Origin: Cellulomonas aerilata
GTDB taxonomy: Bacteria > Actinomycetota > Actinomycetes > Actinomycetales > Cellulomonadaceae
DNA: 64,000 bases
Assembly (NCBI RefSeq): GCF_007991755.1
Contig: NZ_BJYY01000001.1
Span: forward strand, 310,001-374,000
Direction: 5' to 3'
Below the pieces are notes generated by a model. That model saw only the letters and a program-made list of their open reading frames with translations, made no database searches and had not been told where the DNA came from. Positions 952 to 46,865 of the stretch are shown here, piece by piece; within the stretch, counting starts at the first letter, position 1, and each line of letters opens with the position of its first letter. Both the position numbers and the translations under genes were made by a program.

Positions 952-2463
952 GTGCCGACCTTCGAGCAGTTCCGCCTCCCCGACGCCGGCGAGGGCCTGA
1001 CCGAGGCCGAGATCGTCGCCTGGCACGTCGCGGTCGGCGACGCCGTCACCGTCAACCAGACGATCGTGGAGATCGAGACGGCCAAGTCCCTGGTCGAGCT
1101 GCCCAGCCCGTTCACCGGCGTGGTCACCGAGCTGCTCGCCCAGCCGGGCACGACCGTGGAGGTCGGCACCCCGATCATCGTCATCGACGTCGACCCGACC
1201 GGGACGCCCGCCCCGGCGCCCGCCGCGCCTGCCGCGACGGCAGCGGCCGGGTCCGGCACGCCCACGGGCACGACGACCGGCACGACGACGACCGGCACGA
1301 CGACGACCGGCACGACGTCGCCGGCCCCGGCGGGCGACGGCGACGCGGGCGGTGCGGTGCTCGTCGGGTACGGCGTCGGCGGTCACGCGGCGCGCCGGAC
1401 CCGCCGGTCCGCGGGCGCCGCCCCGGCCTCGTCGTCGGCCGAGGCACCTGCCGCGGGCCCCGCCGCCGCGCCCGCGTCCGCCCCGGCGCCGGCCCCCGTC
1501 GCCGCGCCGCAGGCCCCGGCGACGCCGCCGTCGGCCCCGGACGCCGGACGCCCGGCCCGGCACGCCCTGGCCAAGCCCCCGGTCCGCAAGCTCGCGCGGG
1601 ACCTCGGCGTGGACCTGGACAGCGTCAGCGCGACCGGCCCCGGCGGGATCGTCACCCGCGAGGACGTGCTGGCCCACGGGGCCGAGACCGAGCCCCGCAC
1701 GCTCGCCACCTACCCCGGCGACGACTCGCCGTGGCTCGCGTCCGGCGCCGTCTCGCCCGACGGCCGCGAGACGCGCGTCCCGGTGAAGTCCGTCCGCAAG
1801 CGGACCGCCGAGGCGATGGTCGCCAGCGCCTTCACCGCCCCGCACGTGACCGTCTTCCACACGGTCGACGTCACCAAGACGATGCACCTGGTGACCCGGC
1901 TGCGCGAGGACCGCGAGTTCGCCGACGTGCGCGTCACCCCGCTGCTGATCGCGGCGAAGGCGCTCATGCTCGCGGTCCGGCGGCACCCGGAGATCAACGC
2001 GAGCTGGGACGACGCGGCGCAGGAGATCGTCTACAAGCACTACGTCAACCTCGGGATCGCGGCCGCCACCCCGCGCGGACTCGTCGTGCCGAACATCAAG
2101 GACGCGCACCGGCTCGGGCTCAAGGAGCTCGCGGAGTCGATCGCGGAGCTCACCGGCACCGCGCGCGCCGGCCGGACCACCCCCGCGGACATGTCGGGCG
2201 GCACGATCACCATCACGAACGTCGGCGTCTTCGGCATCGACACCGGTACCCCGATCCTCAACCCGGGCGAGGCCGCGATCCTCGCGCTCGGGGCGATCCG
2301 GGAGCAGCCGTGGGTGCACAAGGGCAAGATCAAGAAGCGCTGGGTGACCCAGCTCGCGCTGTCCTTCGACCACCGCCTCGTCGACGGCGGGCTCGGCTCG
2401 CGCGTGCTGGCCGACGTCGCCGCGGTGCTGGCGAACCCGGCGCAGGGCCTGGTCTGGGGCTGA
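952..2463 (+). CDS. Dihydrolipoamide acyltransferase (E2 component)
   Basis: E2 core of the 2-oxoacid dehydrogenase complex, 503 residues. It carries the acyl group on a lipoyl arm and transfers it to CoA in the cytosol. A single lipoyl domain occupies about residues 3-78, with the lipoylated lysine at K45 in IETAKSLVEL. A long Ala/Pro/Thr-rich flexible linker follows, containing the TGTTT repeats described separately. The peripheral-subunit binding domain lies at about 203-240 (KPPVRKLARDLGVDLD). The catalytic domain runs from about 275 to the end, with the active-site motif SFDHRLVDGG near residue 472. The GTG at 952 was chosen because it immediately precedes the lipoyl domain and lies outside the E1 beta gene. 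The open frame extends upstream into E1 beta without domain support. Only one lipoyl domain is present, as is usual for branched-chain E2. Confidence 0.93.
   Translation: MPTFEQFRLPDAGEGLTEAEIVAWHVAVGDAVTVNQTIVEIETAKSLVELPSPFTGVVTELLAQPGTTVEVGTPIIVIDVDPTGTPAPAPAAPAATAAAGSGTPTGTTTGTTTTGTTTTGTTSPAPAGDGDAGGAVLVGYGVGGHAARRTRRSAGAAPASSSAEAPAAGPAAAPASAPAPAPVAAPQAPATPPSAPDAGRPARHALAKPPVRKLARDLGVDLDSVSATGPGGIVTREDVLAHGAETEPRTLATYPGDDSPWLASGAVSPDGRETRVPVKSVRKRTAEAMVASAFTAPHVTVFHTVDVTKTMHLVTRLREDREFADVRVTPLLIAAKALMLAVRRHPEINASWDDAAQEIVYKHYVNLGIAAATPRGLVVPNIKDAHRLGLKELAESIAELTGTARAGRTTPADMSGGTITITNVGVFGIDTGTPILNPGEAAILALGAIREQPWVHKGKIKKRWVTQLALSFDHRLVDGGLGSRVLADVAAVLANPAQGLVWG
1267..1317 (+). repeat. 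Short tandem repeat in the E2 linker
   Basis: Units GGCACGACGACC and GGCACGACGACGACC (15 bases, two adjacent identical copies), followed by a partial unit, encode a Thr-Gly repeat (TGTTT) in the flexible linker of E2. The repeat is in frame and could vary in copy number by slippage without breaking the protein. Confidence 0.8.
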
Positions 2464-42399: not shown

Positions 42400-43623
42400 C
42401 TACCGCTCGACCGGTGTGGAGGACGGCCCGGGCACCGCGGCCCCGGCCGGGCGGTCGAGCAGTCGGGCGAGCGCGAACCGGTCGGCCGCGGCGACCCCTG
42501 CCGCACCCGCCGTCCCGGCGCGACCTCGCGGGTCCGCCAGGTCCGCGAGCACGCGACCGACCGCGGTGGCGAACTTGAACCCGTGCCCGGAGAAGCCCGC
42601 GCCCACCACGACCGGACCGCGCCGGTCGAGCACGAAGTCGCTCTCCGGCGTGGTGGTGTAGGTGCACGAGATCGGGTCGAGGGCGTCGGGGTCGGCGCCC
42701 GGCACCCACTGCGCGACGTACGACCGCAGCTGCTCGAGCTGGACCGGCTCGGGGGCGAAGGTGCGCCGGTCGGGGTCGGTCACCGGCCCGACGCCGTGGA
42801 AGCCGACCTTGATCCCCTCCCCGGGAGTGGCCATCCCGTAGGTCCCGCTGGGCCAGGACCCGGGGGCGACGGCGTGCACGAAGCCGGGCCACGCGTCCAG
42901 CGGTGGTGCACCCGTGCGCGCAGCGAAGTGCGCGGGCTGCTCCTGGGTGACGACGAGCGGCCACGCCGCGGCACCGGTGGGAAATCCCGGGACGCCCGCG
43001 AGGAGCCCGGCCGTCCACGCCCCGACGGTGACGACGACGCGGCGGGCGACCACCGTCCCGTCGTCCGTGACCACCCGGACGGCGTCACCGGACCCGAGGG
43101 GCTCCAGGCGCCGGACCGGGCGGTCGTGCCGGACGGACGCGCCCGAGCGGGCGGCCTCGTCCTGCAGGGCGGTGACCGCCCGGTCGGCGTGGACCCGGCC
43201 GGCGGTGCCGGGCTCGTGGAGCACGGGTCCGTCGAAGCGCAGACCCGGCCACCGCTCGGCCGCCTCGTCGGGCTCCAGCCAGGTGAACGGCACCCCGCGC
43301 GCGGACAGCGCGTCGGGGAGGTGGGGGTCGAGCCCCGGACCGTGGGTCACCCCGCCGGTGATCGTGAGCAGCTGCGTCCCCGTGGCGGCCTCGAGGTCAC
43401 GCCAGAGCCTGCCCGCCTCCTCGACCAGGTCGAGGTACTCCGGCTCGGTGTAGGTGTGCCGGAACAGGCGGGAGGCGCCGTGGGACGCCCCGTGCACGTG
43501 GCCGGCGCCGAAGCGCTCGAGCAGCACGACGTCGAGCCCGCGCCCGGCCAGCTGCCACGCCGTCGCGGACCCCATCACGCCGCCACCGACGACGACCACG
43601 TCGACGTCCGTCCCGACCACCAT
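42400..43623 (-). CDS. Monomeric sarcosine oxidase / N-methyltryptophan oxidase family
   Basis: A 407-residue FAD-dependent amine oxidase. Motifs are VVVVGGGVMGSATAWQLAGR at the N-terminus, the FAD-loop HGASHGASRLFRHTY (the GASHGxSR region typical of SoxA/MTOX) and CTYTTTPESDFVLDRRG with the covalent-FAD cysteine position near the end, then GFSGHGFKFATAVG. It would oxidise an N-methyl amino acid and produce peroxide. ATG 43623 has GGAGGGAGCGGGG upstream. The divergent riboswitch and metQNI genes begin about 160 bases away, so a shared link to methyl or methionine metabolism is possible. Confidence 0.88.
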   Translation of the reverse strand: MVVGTDVDVVVVGGGVMGSATAWQLAGRGLDVVLLERFGAGHVHGASHGASRLFRHTYTEPEYLDLVEEAGRLWRDLEAATGTQLLTITGGVTHGPGLDPHLPDALSARGVPFTWLEPDEAAERWPGLRFDGPVLHEPGTAGRVHADRAVTALQDEAARSGASVRHDRPVRRLEPLGSGDAVRVVTDDGTVVARRVVVTVGAWTAGLLAGVPGFPTGAAAWPLVVTQEQPAHFAARTGAPPLDAWPGFVHAVAPGSWPSGTYGMATPGEGIKVGFHGVGPVTDPDRRTFAPEPVQLEQLRSYVAQWVPGADPDALDPISCTYTTTPESDFVLDRRGPVVVGAGFSGHGFKFATAVGRVLADLADPRGRAGTAGAAGVAAADRFALARLLDRPAGAAVPGPSSTPVER

Positions 43624-43716
43624 CCCCGCTCCCTCCGCCGCCGGACATCCTGCCGCGCTCGCGGCGCGGCCCGACCCGCCGTCGGTGGCGGGGCAGCCAC
43701 GAGGTGATACGGCCAT

Positions 43717-43775
43717 CTCACCATGTGAGCCAATCGGCGGGCGGCTGGACGCCCTCGGCCCCTCGTTCCTAGCAT
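43717..43775 (+). promoter_or_regulatory. Promoter of the SAM riboswitch transcript and small dyad
   Basis: TAGCAT (43770-43775) is a -10 box that would start transcription about seven bases later, at the base of the riboswitch. Upstream, CTCAC-CAT-GTGAG (43717-43729) is a perfect inverted repeat that could bind a regulator. It is between the divergent oxidase and riboswitch, so it may act on either side. Confidence 0.5.
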
Positions 43776-43783
43776 CGCGTCAA

Positions 43784-43876
43784 CCATCCAGAGCGGCCGA
43801 GAGATCTGGCTCGACGACGCCGCAGCAACCCGGGGACCCTCCGTCCCGCCATGGGTGCTACCGCCAGGACCGATGG
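43784..43876 (+). ncRNA. SAM riboswitch (SAM-I/S-box type)
   Basis: S-adenosylmethionine sensor RNA in front of the methionine importer. P1 is CCATC (43784-43788) with GATGG (43872-43876). The core reads GAGAGATCTGGCTCGACGAC, then GCCGCAGCAACC, which matches the S-box core (GGC-CGA-GAAGCC-GCAACC pattern). P3 is GGGAC/GTCCC around 43824-43837, and GGGTGCTACC lies at 43854-43863 as the conserved GGTGC region. The 3' strand of P1 runs directly into the ribosome binding site of the leader ORF at 43884, so bound SAM should hide it. Assignment to SAM-I rather than the related SAM-IV class is based on the core wording only. Confidence 0.85.
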
Positions 43877-43883
43877 AGGCGCC

Positions 43884-43988
43884 ATGACCACCCCCGCTCG
43901 CGACCTGCCCCCGAGCCGGTCGTGCGGAGCGCTGCGCGCCCGTACCGCCCTGCCGCCCGGCGTCCCCGACGGGTCCTGTCGACGCTGA
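43884..43988 (+). CDS. 34-residue leader ORF under riboswitch control
   Basis: An open frame from ATG 43884 to TGA 43986-43988 encodes 34 residues, starting MTTPARDLPPSRSCGAL and ending DGSCRR. Its ribosome binding site GGAGG (43875-43879) is at ideal spacing and overlaps the 3' strand of riboswitch helix P1. No membrane segment or known motif is seen; it is Arg/Pro-rich with two cysteines. It lies 115 bases before metQ. It may be a true small protein, but a regulatory uORF whose translation affects termination before metQ is as likely. There is no evidence beyond the start signal and position. Confidence 0.45.
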   Translation: MTTPARDLPPSRSCGALRARTALPPGVPDGSCRR

Positions 43989-44040
43989 GAGCACGGCCCC
44001 GCCAGCCACGACCGCACGCACGCGGTCACCGTCCTGCACG

Positions 44041-44062
44041 CCCGGATCCCTCGGATCGCGGG
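44041..44062 (+). terminator. Hairpin between leader ORF and metQ (possible attenuator)
   Basis: CCCGGATCC (44041-44049) pairs with GGATC-G-CGGG (44053-44062) with one bulged G and a CTC loop. It is 52 bases after the leader ORF stop and 41 bases before metQ, where a transcription attenuator would be expected. Confidence 0.4.
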
Positions 44063-44103
44063 CCGTCCCCCTGCCACGGCACGACCCCAGAGAGGCACCA
44101 CCC

Positions 44104-45009
44104 ATGAAGCGCACCCTCACCGCACTCGCCAGCACCGTCGCCCTCGCCGCGAGCCTCGCCGCCTGCGGCGGAGGAGACGGCTCGGACGGCGCGGCCGCCG
44201 GCGGCTCGGAGTCGCAGGGGCCGGTCACGATCGGCGTCGCCGACCAGAGCAAGGAGTACTGGCGGACCTTCGAGAAGCTCGCGGCCGACGAGGGCATCGA
44301 GGTGGAGCTGGTGAACTTCACCGACTACACCCAGCCGAACCCGATCCTCAGCCAGGGCGACCTCGACCTCAACCAGTTCCAGCACCTGCTGTACCTGGCC
44401 AACTACAACGTCTCGGCCGACGACGACCTCGCGCCGATCGGGTCGACGGCGATCTACCAGCTCGGGCTCTACACGACCAAGGGCTACGAGTCGCCGGAGG
44501 ACATCCCGGACGGCGCCGAGATCGCCATCCCGAACGACGTCGTCAACCAGGCGCGCGCCCTGCTGGTGCTGCAGTCGGCCGGCCTGATCGCCCTGGAGGG
44601 CGGGGGCAACGCGTTCTCCACGCCGGCCGAGATCGACGAGGAGGCGTCGCGCGTCACCGTGGTCCCGGTGGACGCCAACCAGACCGCGGTGCAGGTCAAC
44701 ATCCTCGACGGGGCGGTCATCAACAACAACTTCGCCTCCGACGCGGACATCGACCCGTCGACGGCGATCTATTCCGACCTCGAGGACACCGGCACGGCGC
44801 GCCCGTACCTGAACATCTGGGTCGCGCGGGCCGAGGACGCCGACAACCCCACCTACCTCAAGCTCGTGGACCTCTACCACTCCGACGAGGTGCTCGACCA
44901 GCTGCTCGAGGAGAACAAGGGCACCGCGGTGACCGAGGTCGTGGAGCCCGAGGAGCTGCAGAAGGACCTGACCGACCTGGAGGACCTGGTCCGCACGAGC
45001 GCCGGCTGA
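44104..45009 (+). CDS. metQ: Methionine ABC transporter substrate-binding lipoprotein
   Basis: A 301-residue lipoprotein of the NlpA/MetQ family that binds methionine outside the membrane and delivers it to MetNI. The signal peptide ends in the lipobox SLAAC with the lipidated cysteine C21. The mature protein has the family segments ILSQGDLDLNQFQHLLYLAN, EIAIPNDVVNQARALLVLQS and DGAVINNNFA. ATG 44104 has AGAGAGG nine bases upstream. The gene heads the metQNI operon downstream of the SAM riboswitch, so it should be off when SAM is plentiful. Confidence 0.95.
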   Translation: MKRTLTALASTVALAASLAACGGGDGSDGAAAGGSESQGPVTIGVADQSKEYWRTFEKLAADEGIEVELVNFTDYTQPNPILSQGDLDLNQFQHLLYLANYNVSADDDLAPIGSTAIYQLGLYTTKGYESPEDIPDGAEIAIPNDVVNQARALLVLQSAGLIALEGGGNAFSTPAEIDEEASRVTVVPVDANQTAVQVNILDGAVINNNFASDADIDPSTAIYSDLEDTGTARPYLNIWVARAEDADNPTYLKLVDLYHSDEVLDQLLEENKGTAVTEVVEPEELQKDLTDLEDLVRTSAG

Positions 45010-45111: not shown

Positions 45112-46206
45112 ATGACGACCACGATGGTGTCGCTGCGCGACGTGACGAAGGTGTTCCCCGGCAAGCAGGGACCGGTGCGCGCGGTGGACGGGCTCAGCCT
45201 GGACATCGCCAAGGGCGAGGTGTTCGGGGTGATCGGCTACTCCGGGGCCGGCAAGAGCACGCTCGTCCGGCTCATCAACGCGCTCGAGCTGCCCGACAGC
45301 GGCGACGTCGTCGTGGACGGGAGGTCCCTGACCCGCGCGTCCGAGCGCGAGCTGCGCCAGGCGCGCACGGGCATCGGCTTCATCTTCCAGCAGTTCAACC
45401 TGTGGCGGTCGCGGACCGTCGCCGGCAACGTCGGGTACCCGCTGCGGGTCGCCGGCTGGCCGCGCAGGCGCCGCGAGGAGCGCGTCGCCGAGCTGCTCGA
45501 CTTCGTCGGTCTCGCCGACAAGGCCCGCCAGTACCCCGACCAGCTCTCCGGTGGGCAGAAGCAGCGCGTCGGCATCGCGCGGGCCCTCGCGACGTCCCCG
45601 GCCCTGCTGCTGGCGGACGAGGCCACCAGCGCGCTGGATCCCGAGACGACCCGCGACGTGCTGGACCTGCTGCGGCGGATCAACACCGAGCTCGGCGTGA
45701 CAATCGTGGTCATCACCCACGAGATGTCGGTGGTGTCCTACCTCTGCGACCGGGTCGCCGTGCTCGAGGGCGGCAAGGTCGTCGAGCTGGGCGACGTCTA
45801 CGACGTCTTCTCCACGCCGCAGCGCGACGTCACCCGGCGCTTCATCGGGACCGCGCTGCACGACCGCCCCTCGCCGGACGTCGTCGCGCGCCTGCGCCGG
45901 CGCCACCCCGGCCGCATCGTGACGGTGACCGTGCGCGACGTCGAGGGGCAGGCGCCGCTGACCGAGACGTTCCGCACCCACGGCGTCGACGCGTCCGTGG
46001 TGTACGGGGGCATCACGGAGGTGAACTCGCGGCCGCTGGGCTCCCTGACCTTCGAGCTCGCCGGGGACGCCGACCGCATCGACGCCGTGCTCGACGACCT
46101 GAGCGCACGGTCGGACATCCAGGAGTACGACGGCGACGGGCGGCCCCTGCGCCGGCCGGTGGCCAGTCCCGCCGGCGTCGGCGCCCGGCAGGAGGGGGTC
46201 CGATGA
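45112..46206 (+). CDS. metN: Methionine ABC transporter ATP-binding protein
   Basis: A 364-residue ATPase that powers methionine import. Walker A is GYSGAGKST (about 42-50), the Q-loop FQQFNLW, the signature LSGGQKQRVGIARAL (about 145) and Walker B ALLLADEATSALD. The C-terminal NIL-type regulatory domain (about 255-340) includes GGITEVNSRPLGSLTFELAG and would bind methionine to give feedback inhibition. ATG 45112 follows GGACAGCCCCCC; the gap from metQ is 102 bases. Its stop overlaps the metI start (ATGA). Confidence 0.95.
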   Translation: MTTTMVSLRDVTKVFPGKQGPVRAVDGLSLDIAKGEVFGVIGYSGAGKSTLVRLINALELPDSGDVVVDGRSLTRASERELRQARTGIGFIFQQFNLWRSRTVAGNVGYPLRVAGWPRRRREERVAELLDFVGLADKARQYPDQLSGGQKQRVGIARALATSPALLLADEATSALDPETTRDVLDLLRRINTELGVTIVVITHEMSVVSYLCDRVAVLEGGKVVELGDVYDVFSTPQRDVTRRFIGTALHDRPSPDVVARLRRRHPGRIVTVTVRDVEGQAPLTETFRTHGVDASVVYGGITEVNSRPLGSLTFELAGDADRIDAVLDDLSARSDIQEYDGDGRPLRRPVASPAGVGARQEGVR

Positions 46207-46865
46207 CCAGCAACGGCACCGACCTGTGGCCCCTGCTCCTCGCCGCCCTCGGCGAGACGCTGTGGATGGTGACGGCGACCCTGGCAGCGGGCGGCCTGGG
46301 CGGGCTCGCCCTGGGGACGCTGCTCTACGTCACGCGGCCGGGCAACGTGCTCGCGAACCGCGGGGTCTTCTCCGTGCTGAACGTGCTGGTGAACATCGTC
46401 CGGCCCATCCCGTTCATCATCTTCATCACCGCGATCCTGCCGCTGACCCACTCCGTCACCGGGGCGAGCTTCGGGACGGAGGCGGTCATCTTCCCGATGG
46501 CGATCATCACGGTGTTCGGCACGTCCCGGATCGTCGAGCAGAACCTCGTCGCCCTGGACCCCGGCGTCATCGAGGCCGCCCGCGCGGTGGGTGCCAGCCG
46601 CATCCGGATCGTCGGGTCGATCATCATCCCCGAGGCGCTCGGGCCGCTGATCCTGGGCTACACCTTCCTGTTCGTGGCGATCGTCGACATGTCGGCGATG
46701 GCCGGTGCCGTGGCCGGCGGCGGTCTGGGCGACTTCGCCCTGCAGTACGGCTACCAGCGGTTCAACCACGTGGTCACCTGGGTCACCGTGGCGGTCATCG
46801 TCATCGTCGTGCAGGGCGCGCAGATGGTCGGGAACGGGTTGGCCCGGCGCGTGCTGCGGCGTTGA
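46203..46865 (+). CDS. metI: Methionine ABC transporter permease
   Basis: A 220-residue inner-membrane permease with five membrane segments. VRPIPFIIFITAILPLT and the EAA-loop VIEAARAVGASRIRIVGSII (contact with MetN) are typical for MetI. It ends with QYGYQRFNHVVTWVTVAVIV. ATG 46203 overlaps the metN stop by four bases. It is the last gene of metQNI; the LacI regulator begins 120 bases downstream on its own promoter. Confidence 0.95.
   Translation: MTSNGTDLWPLLLAALGETLWMVTATLAAGGLGGLALGTLLYVTRPGNVLANRGVFSVLNVLVNIVRPIPFIIFITAILPLTHSVTGASFGTEAVIFPMAIITVFGTSRIVEQNLVALDPGVIEAARAVGASRIRIVGSIIIPEALGPLILGYTFLFVAIVDMSAMAGAVAGGGLGDFALQYGYQRFNHVVTWVTVAVIVIVVQGAQMVGNGLARRVLRR

Follow-up and report, generated by a model that had tools for sequence, protein, structure and literature searches.

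Initiation of a short leader ORF as the probable output of a SAM-I riboswitch ahead of metQNI in Cellulomonas aerilata

A SAM-I (S-box) riboswitch precedes the methionine transporter operon metQNI of Cellulomonas aerilata, and its P1 helix runs into the Shine–Dalgarno (SD) sequence of a 34-codon leader ORF. Because P1 shares bases with this SD, the leader ORF, not metQ, would be the direct target of the gate. The anatomy, together with evidence from the family, makes initiation of the leader ORF very probably the direct output of the switch. A larger reading, in which a translational SAM-I riboswitch was re-used on a leader ORF and reaches metQNI by polarity and Rho, we regard as evenly poised. 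SAM-I riboswitches are textbook switches that act on terminators or on the RBS of the gene itself. Wiring of S-box RNAs to short ORFs is recurrent in the order and, apparently, undescribed.

Anatomy of the metQ leader

The window (the whole 64,000-nt stretch analysed) holds one riboswitch above an Rfam gathering score. This match to RF00162 (SAM-I), at 43781–43879 on the + strand, spans the full covariance model, 1–108, and reaches 52.6 bits (gathering score 44.4; E 2.9e-9). The original prediction of a SAM riboswitch is thus borne out, and the positions it gave for GATGG, GGAGG, the ATG at 43884 and the 34-codon frame agree with the sequence. The ATG (43884–43886) comes 4 nt after GGAGG (43875–43879); the SD touches the P1 3′ strand with a start codon close behind, the arrangement of a translational S-box. 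The features of the leader and operon are as follows.

43746..43775, + strand: promoter-like TGGACG-18 nt-TAGCAT, read from sequence
43781..43879, + strand: SAM-I (S-box) aptamer, RF00162
43784..43788, + strand: P1 5′ strand CCATC, from the Rfam alignment
43872..43876, + strand: P1 3′ strand GATGG, from the Rfam alignment
43875..43879, + strand: GGAGG, SD of the leader ORF, read from sequence; two G in common with P1
43884..43988, + strand: 34-codon leader ORF, MTTPARDLPPSRSCGALRARTALPPGVPDGSCRR, an open reading frame with TGA at 43986–43988
43989..44103, + strand: untranslated C-rich gap (C/G 1.75), a candidate Rho-loading stretch
44040..44063, + strand: bulged hairpin GCCCGGATCC-CTC-GGATC-G-CGGGC without a U-run, in the fold of 44030–44115
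44090..44095, + strand: SD-like GAGAGG, 8 nt ahead of the metQ ATG, read from sequence
44104..45009, + strand: metQ, methionine-binding lipoprotein (PF03180, 207 bits)
45112..46206, + strand: metN, ATPase with a NIL domain (PF00005, PF09383)
46203..46865, + strand: metI-like permease of 220 residues (PF00528, 43.4 bits against a cutoff of 26.4)

A transcript started from the promoter-like element would begin approximately at the P1 5′ strand. DNA likeness to the riboswitch loci of many relatives starts at 43769–43770, and a sigma-70 scan found no promoter. Among the NCBIfam models, metQ and metN match best to MetQ NF008285 and TIGR02314, respectively, each below its cutoff. The metI-like permease overlaps metN by ATGA.

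The leader ORF itself has few marks of a conserved peptide. In the ORF listing, its frame appears as 43851–43988, from an upstream in-frame ATG. Its length carries no weight because 71% of random sequences (first-order Markov, matched composition) stay open for 34 codons (P 0.71). Codon usage is intermediate at −0.28 per codon, under all 129 in-frame gene windows and over 257 of 258 out-of-frame windows; read in its other two frames, this stretch scores −0.81 and −0.36, which leaves the ORF frame best by a narrow margin. Searches of Pfam and NCBIfam profiles returned no match, and the Cys leader peptide profile NF042934 gave none up to E 10. Comparison of the DNA and the peptide with the fetched loci of relatives gave nothing above chance, and the ORF was found in no other genome. 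Lack of conservation, which the original prediction had named as refuting it, is thus the outcome among the loci compared. Two of the 34 codons encode Cys, compared with three in another frame, and there is neither CC nor a Met run. The peptide ends in GSCRR-stop, with its Cys codons near the end.

Behind the stop codon at 43988, a gap of 115 nt leads to the metQ ATG at 44104. Its most C-biased 78 nt fall in the top 0.8% of 78-nt windows in the window, and the metQ–metN gap is nearly as C-rich (C/G 1.68); C-richness is a weak sign of Rho loading. The predicted fold of 44030–44115 is no better than that of shuffled sequences (z +1.17; 182 of 200 shuffles at least as stable), and the whole leader is likewise not unusually stable (89 of 100). 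A terminator scan of 43400–44600 found no terminator-like site.

Riboswitch-started ORFs in the family and the order

SAM-I riboswitches are present in at least one copy in 201 of 221 family genomes (E 0.001). C. aerilata has two, the metQ leader and one opening metF (PF02219), and both are included in the fetched sample of 183 distinct family loci recognized by script. In 177 of these, the metQ leader included, GGAG lies on the P1 3′ strand or right behind it; a start codon follows in 176 classified loci, in 172 of them 4–10 nt behind GGAG. The predicted merging of P1 into the GGAGG of the leader ORF is confirmed as the usual platform, and P1/SD fusion is the norm among the 183 sampled loci. 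RBSs in or at P1 of actinobacterial riboswitches have been published (PMC2258182, PMC1262725). Four of the 183 loci are unclassified (L010, L021, L033, L216), L024 was removed from the uORF class because its P1 end was mis-called, and five loci beyond the 183 (L141, L143, L145, L151, L195) were excluded since GATGG was not found, the P1 3′ strand being changed or deleted. First genes were assigned by tblastn with one reference each.

The P1-proximal start opens a gene directly in 122 of the 183 loci: rhodanese (62), metF (29), DUF1737 (25; a small protein, PF08410) or metE-like genes of two kinds (6). At 54 others, it opens a uORF of 8–34 codons in a different frame from the gene, which is metF at 51 loci and rhodanese at 3, and the uORF stop and the gene start share an ATGA (28 loci) or a GTGA (26). 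The shared relative frame of all 54 follows from this overlap. GGAG lies within 16 nt upstream of every one of the 54 uORF starts, and an SD-like 4-mer is found at just 6 of the 54 overlapping gene starts. As a control, albeit a small one, the 122 direct loci contain 14 short ORFs that are out of frame, none of which ends in such an overlap. The uORF loci occur in genera g4 (which, judged by contig matches, includes Cellulomonas), g5, g6 and g14. Since the 54 stops overlap gene starts, the riboswitch-started short ORFs seem to relay control. Among the non-direct loci, 56 are valid and combine a proximal start with an assigned gene, and only two of these lack the overlap (NTGA): the metQ leader, with its stop at 43988 and the next start at 44104, and L127, which has an apparent frameshift in rhodanese and is classed beside it as a uORF with a gap.

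The arrangement is not one inherited peptide, because the 54 uORFs fall into 16 peptide clusters. A conserved uORF peptide in the metF class was likewise unsupported, with changes spread over the three codon positions (76, 68 and 56) and a pN/pS of 0.7–1.8 in the ten groups that allow its calculation. As the peptides are unconserved, the uORF seems to matter as a place for ribosomes to land, not for the peptide it encodes. GC3 read in the metF frame rises from 0.78 across the uORF stretch to 0.94 past the overlapping start, which fits a gene start there; upstream metF starts were rejected as an alternative on the same values. When each cluster is represented by one uORF, Cys is enriched in the family uORFs (17 observed, 8.7 expected, P 0.006), but frame +1 has 14, and the signal is weak. 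Many family SAM-I switches thus start non-conserved mini-ORFs that end on the metF start codon.

ORFs ahead of rhodanese resemble shrunken DUF1737 genes of 68 (L120), 50 (L138), 19 (L117), 8 (L154) and 11 codons (L180, GTG start), all of which still have a start codon behind P1 and an ATGA where rhodanese begins. As a related observation, in L117, L121, L138, L154 and L180 the DUF1737 gene is reduced, nearly gone or frameshifted (L121), with the start behind the riboswitch and the rhodanese ATGA kept.

Outside the family, the sample comprised the 24 best-scoring SAM-I loci of the order. Three of these (L314, L315, L319) have metF uORFs with the same overlap, and L308 has an overlapping uORF ahead of a metY/metZ-like gene, without GGAG. 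In seven of the 24 (L309, L311, L312, L318, L320, L321, L326), the riboswitch starts a Cys-containing or RRxVDL peptide. Two pass NF042934 ("putative leader peptide", cutoff 27), L311 with 30.9 bits and L312 with 27.9, and hold no Cys; L318 and L320 match below the cutoff. The first downstream SD-led ORF with 100 or more codons begins 102 nt after the leader stop in L311, 119 in L312, 108 in L326, 50 in L309 and 41 in L320; no such ORF was found behind the leader stops of L318 and L321. By eye, the genes behind these peptides encode solute-binding lipoproteins, an ABC ATPase and flavin-reductase-like proteins. L311, L312 and L326 resemble the metQ leader in having a SAM-I riboswitch, a short ORF, about 110 nt and then an SD-led transporter gene. 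The peptides of L309, L318, L320 and L321 end in A/T, C, Q/R plus one to four residues, like GSCRR.

The original prediction had called a relay of this kind unusual for S-box RNAs. That fits the searchable literature but not the family, in which 54 of 183 sampled loci have a riboswitch-started uORF. Among the open-access matches listed, no paper was seen to describe a uORF or leader peptide that is started by a SAM-I riboswitch.

Routes from the leader ORF to metQ

In the proposed mechanism, a riboswitch, SD and start codon that look like the DUF1737/rhodanese–metZ openers of relatives stand before metQNI, in a genome without that operon. With SAM bound, P1 would close over part of GGAGG and leave the leader ORF untranslated; at low SAM, GGAGG would be free and the ORF translated. 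The C-rich leader would then be bare of ribosomes in the presence of SAM, and Rho could halt transcription ahead of metQ; without SAM, half of the leader would be covered by ribosomes. We infer that polarity through Rho is the best remaining route to metQ. The C-rich leader, the failure to find an intrinsic terminator and the 102–119 nt geometry of L311, L312 and L326 speak for it, with the Mbox–uORF–Rho relay and the B12–uORF switch of M. tuberculosis as precedents. Against it, metQ is preceded by a GAGAGG of its own, and a gap of 115 nt separates it from the uORF stop where the 54 coupled loci have none; because of this gap and this SD, coupling by overlap fails at metQ. A further point against the reading is that just two of the five SD bases fall within P1.

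The likely ancestry of the switch bears on this reading. The best-scoring DNA matches of the metQ-leader riboswitch are DUF1737/rhodanese–metZ riboswitches, 80–89% identical, the best of which end right after the ATG; one 89% aptamer match is a metE-like locus (L152). Other riboswitch matches extend to 43942 or 43961 with 73–81% identity, and a shuffle test left homology of the ORF unsupported. That the leader ORF is a coding remnant of DUF1737 or rhodanese was rejected, as shuffles reach the best score in 27 of 100 cases (DNA) and 190 of 200 (peptide). Because these alignments are no better than shuffles, only the stretch up to the ATG is attributable to a metZ-type locus.

G002 and G003, of the same genus, retain the rhodanese–metZ genes. 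Rhodanese has no match at E 0.001 in the C. aerilata genome or in G001 and G004, and the best metZ-like protein of C. aerilata is 39% identical, compared with 90% between two same-genus genomes. The C. aerilata metQ is closer to copies from g4 (Cellulomonas; 77%) than to same-genus ones (66–67%), and G001 and G004 have no metQ at E 1e-40. These comparisons suggest, short of proof, that metQNI has a different origin and was joined to a riboswitch that had already lost its operon. An in-place swap of metZ for metQNI was unsupported: in a synteny test of window ORFs picked by GC3 against 17–20 kb around either locus in G002 and G003, the flanks share only metQNI. The metQ leader would show how a riboswitch may be re-used once the gene behind it changes.

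A rival account of the same history takes the riboswitch and ATG as left over from a lost metZ operon, the ORF as incidental, and metQNI as transcribed from a different promoter or not controlled by SAM at all. An aptamer without a use would be expected to decay, yet this one scores above its cutoff with P1, SD and start codon intact. It also sits before a methionine transporter, a fitting target for SAM, in the geometry of SAM-I/leader-peptide/transporter loci of other families. We therefore think a relic unlikely, although the chance-expected ORF length (P 0.71) and missing homology would suit one, as would a metQ with no Met/Cys leader peptide ahead of it in a genome with no rhodanese match and no close metZ.

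The metQ genes of relatives introduce a second signal. Among the 183 sampled family loci, metQ is the first gene behind SAM-I only in C. aerilata. A SAM riboswitch was absent from 59 other metQ loci (19 scanned at E 0.5 and 40 at gathering scores; several shortened by contig ends) and from nine further named metQ loci, partly on the same contigs; the Rfam scan of metQ loci left out L054 and L107–L115. In many relatives, a short ORF rich in Met and Cys ends 142–303 nt upstream of metQ, for example MSTHAASERRAQPMRAMAGASCGLMCCRQRMC. A strict Met/Cys motif near the ORF end, picked after a first look, occurs in 38 of 75 metQ regions against 0.6 in shuffles (maximum 2), and a looser motif in 63 of 75 against 10 (maximum 19). 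The C. aerilata region (L046), one of the 75, has no Met/Cys leader motif: its metQ leader lost the Met/Cys peptide or never had it. Ten of these peptides matched no NCBIfam model. One group of ten, compared at the codon level with the metF-class uORFs, gave a pN/pS of 0.37 over codons 19–32 and 0.99 overall, a biased comparison as the motif in the same half had chosen them. These peptides of relatives form a testable Met/Cys attenuator set. Across L047–L115, the motifs include GLMCCRQRMC, MMCCRM and similar.

A composite leader would join both signals: ribosomes would stall at the Cys codons of the leader ORF when cysteine is short, and metQNI would sense SAM and Cys together. Relatives often have metQ behind Met/Cys leader peptides, seven of the 24 order-level riboswitches start Cys-containing or RRxVDL peptides, two of these pass NF042934, three leader-to-transporter gaps (102, 119 and 108 nt) are near the 115 nt seen here, and four peptide ends (L309, L318, L320, L321) resemble GSCRR. 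The two other gaps are 41 and 50 nt, however, and two loci have no such gene; the leader ORF has no profile match and two Cys in frame against three in another; L311 and L312 hold no Cys; and the C-terminal likeness was noticed after the fact. On this evidence we doubt the composite. A wider scheme holds that S-box riboswitches of the order were repeatedly wired to leader ORFs, some coupled to metF by ATGA/GTGA overlap and others opening leader peptides, several of them with Cys close to the end, about 100 nt ahead of an SD-led transporter gene, which would give SAM-plus-cysteine leaders. This scheme, with the metQ leader a recent independent member in which Met/Cys peptide control was displaced, is offered only tentatively.

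Two further routes are very improbable. Ribosomes terminating at 43988 could restart at an overlapping CTG (43985), whose frame is open from ahead of the riboswitch to 44107 and reaches metQ in an ATGA overlap, and such coupling is common at related loci; this route needs a rare CTG start, metQ has its own SD, the ATGA is a by-product of metQ beginning with MK, and codon usage in the CTG frame is non-coding (−0.885, with one misframed gene in the gene set). The original prediction also had a hairpin at 44041–44062 act as an attenuator dependent on uORF translation: the hairpin is present in the fold, but its regulatory role is scarcely credible, given that it has no U-run, ordinary stability and no terminator site, that no competing structure was found in folds of the leader, nor a terminator exclusive with an antiterminator as in transcription-attenuating S-boxes, and that a terminating ribosome would not sit on a hairpin that begins 51 nt past the stop.

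Relation to described systems

SAM-I riboswitches with the RBS in the P1 3′ strand were described by Barrick and Breaker in 2007 (PMC2258182); at the metQ leader, what follows first is a short leader ORF and not a met gene. Relays through a uORF are described for B12 and Mg2+ switches of Mycobacterium (PMC11260477 and PMC12810186, respectively). The ppe2 B12 riboswitch of M. tuberculosis acts on an AUGA-coupled uORF that relays the signal to the gene, and the 54 family loci share its ATGA/GTGA overlap. It differs from the metQ leader in ligand and aptamer, and the metQ leader has a 115-nt gap and no overlap. The pe20 Mbox (PMC12810186) is like the metQ leader in being a translational riboswitch on a uORF with a separate downstream gene and no intrinsic terminator, but it responds to Mg2+, its uORF is conserved and Rho is demonstrated, whereas at metQ Rho is only proposed. 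The authors of that study place the main stop upstream of the uORF.

A relay through a uORF separates sensing from output, and a second signal, possibly cysteine, could enter between the two. Work by Canestrari in 2020 reportedly described Cys leader peptides of actinobacteria. These peptides (NF042934, cis_reg_atten) resemble the leader ORF in being short, with Cys near the end, before sulfur genes; they differ in that the literature consulted describes no riboswitch with them, and in that the metQ-leader ORF does not match the profile. Leader genes that aid reinitiation (PMC4833913) likewise have a short ORF that is proposed to boost translation of the gene after it; they differ as non-overlapping pairs, for which the text consulted mentions no riboswitch. 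In these genomes, taking the first annotated gene as the target of a riboswitch can overlook an ORF that comes before it.

Some family loci depart from the common layout. In the five loci without a GATGG P1 3′ strand (L141, L143, L145, L151, L195), four read GATGAGACGAGG and then a rhodanese-like ATGAGCTA start, as if the DNA between the riboswitch and the last part of the DUF1737 gene had been deleted. L010 and L021 have SAM-I ahead of an acyl-CoA dehydrogenase-like ORF (named by eye), with the ATG about 110 nt downstream and no proximal ATG. In L007 and L008, the SAM-I switch of the metZ operon has a SAM-IV riboswitch (110–115 bits) no more than 150 nt away on the other strand, the pairs lying at 1269–1382 (−) with 1501–1600 (+) and at 1748–1860 (+) with 1501–1603 (−), respectively.
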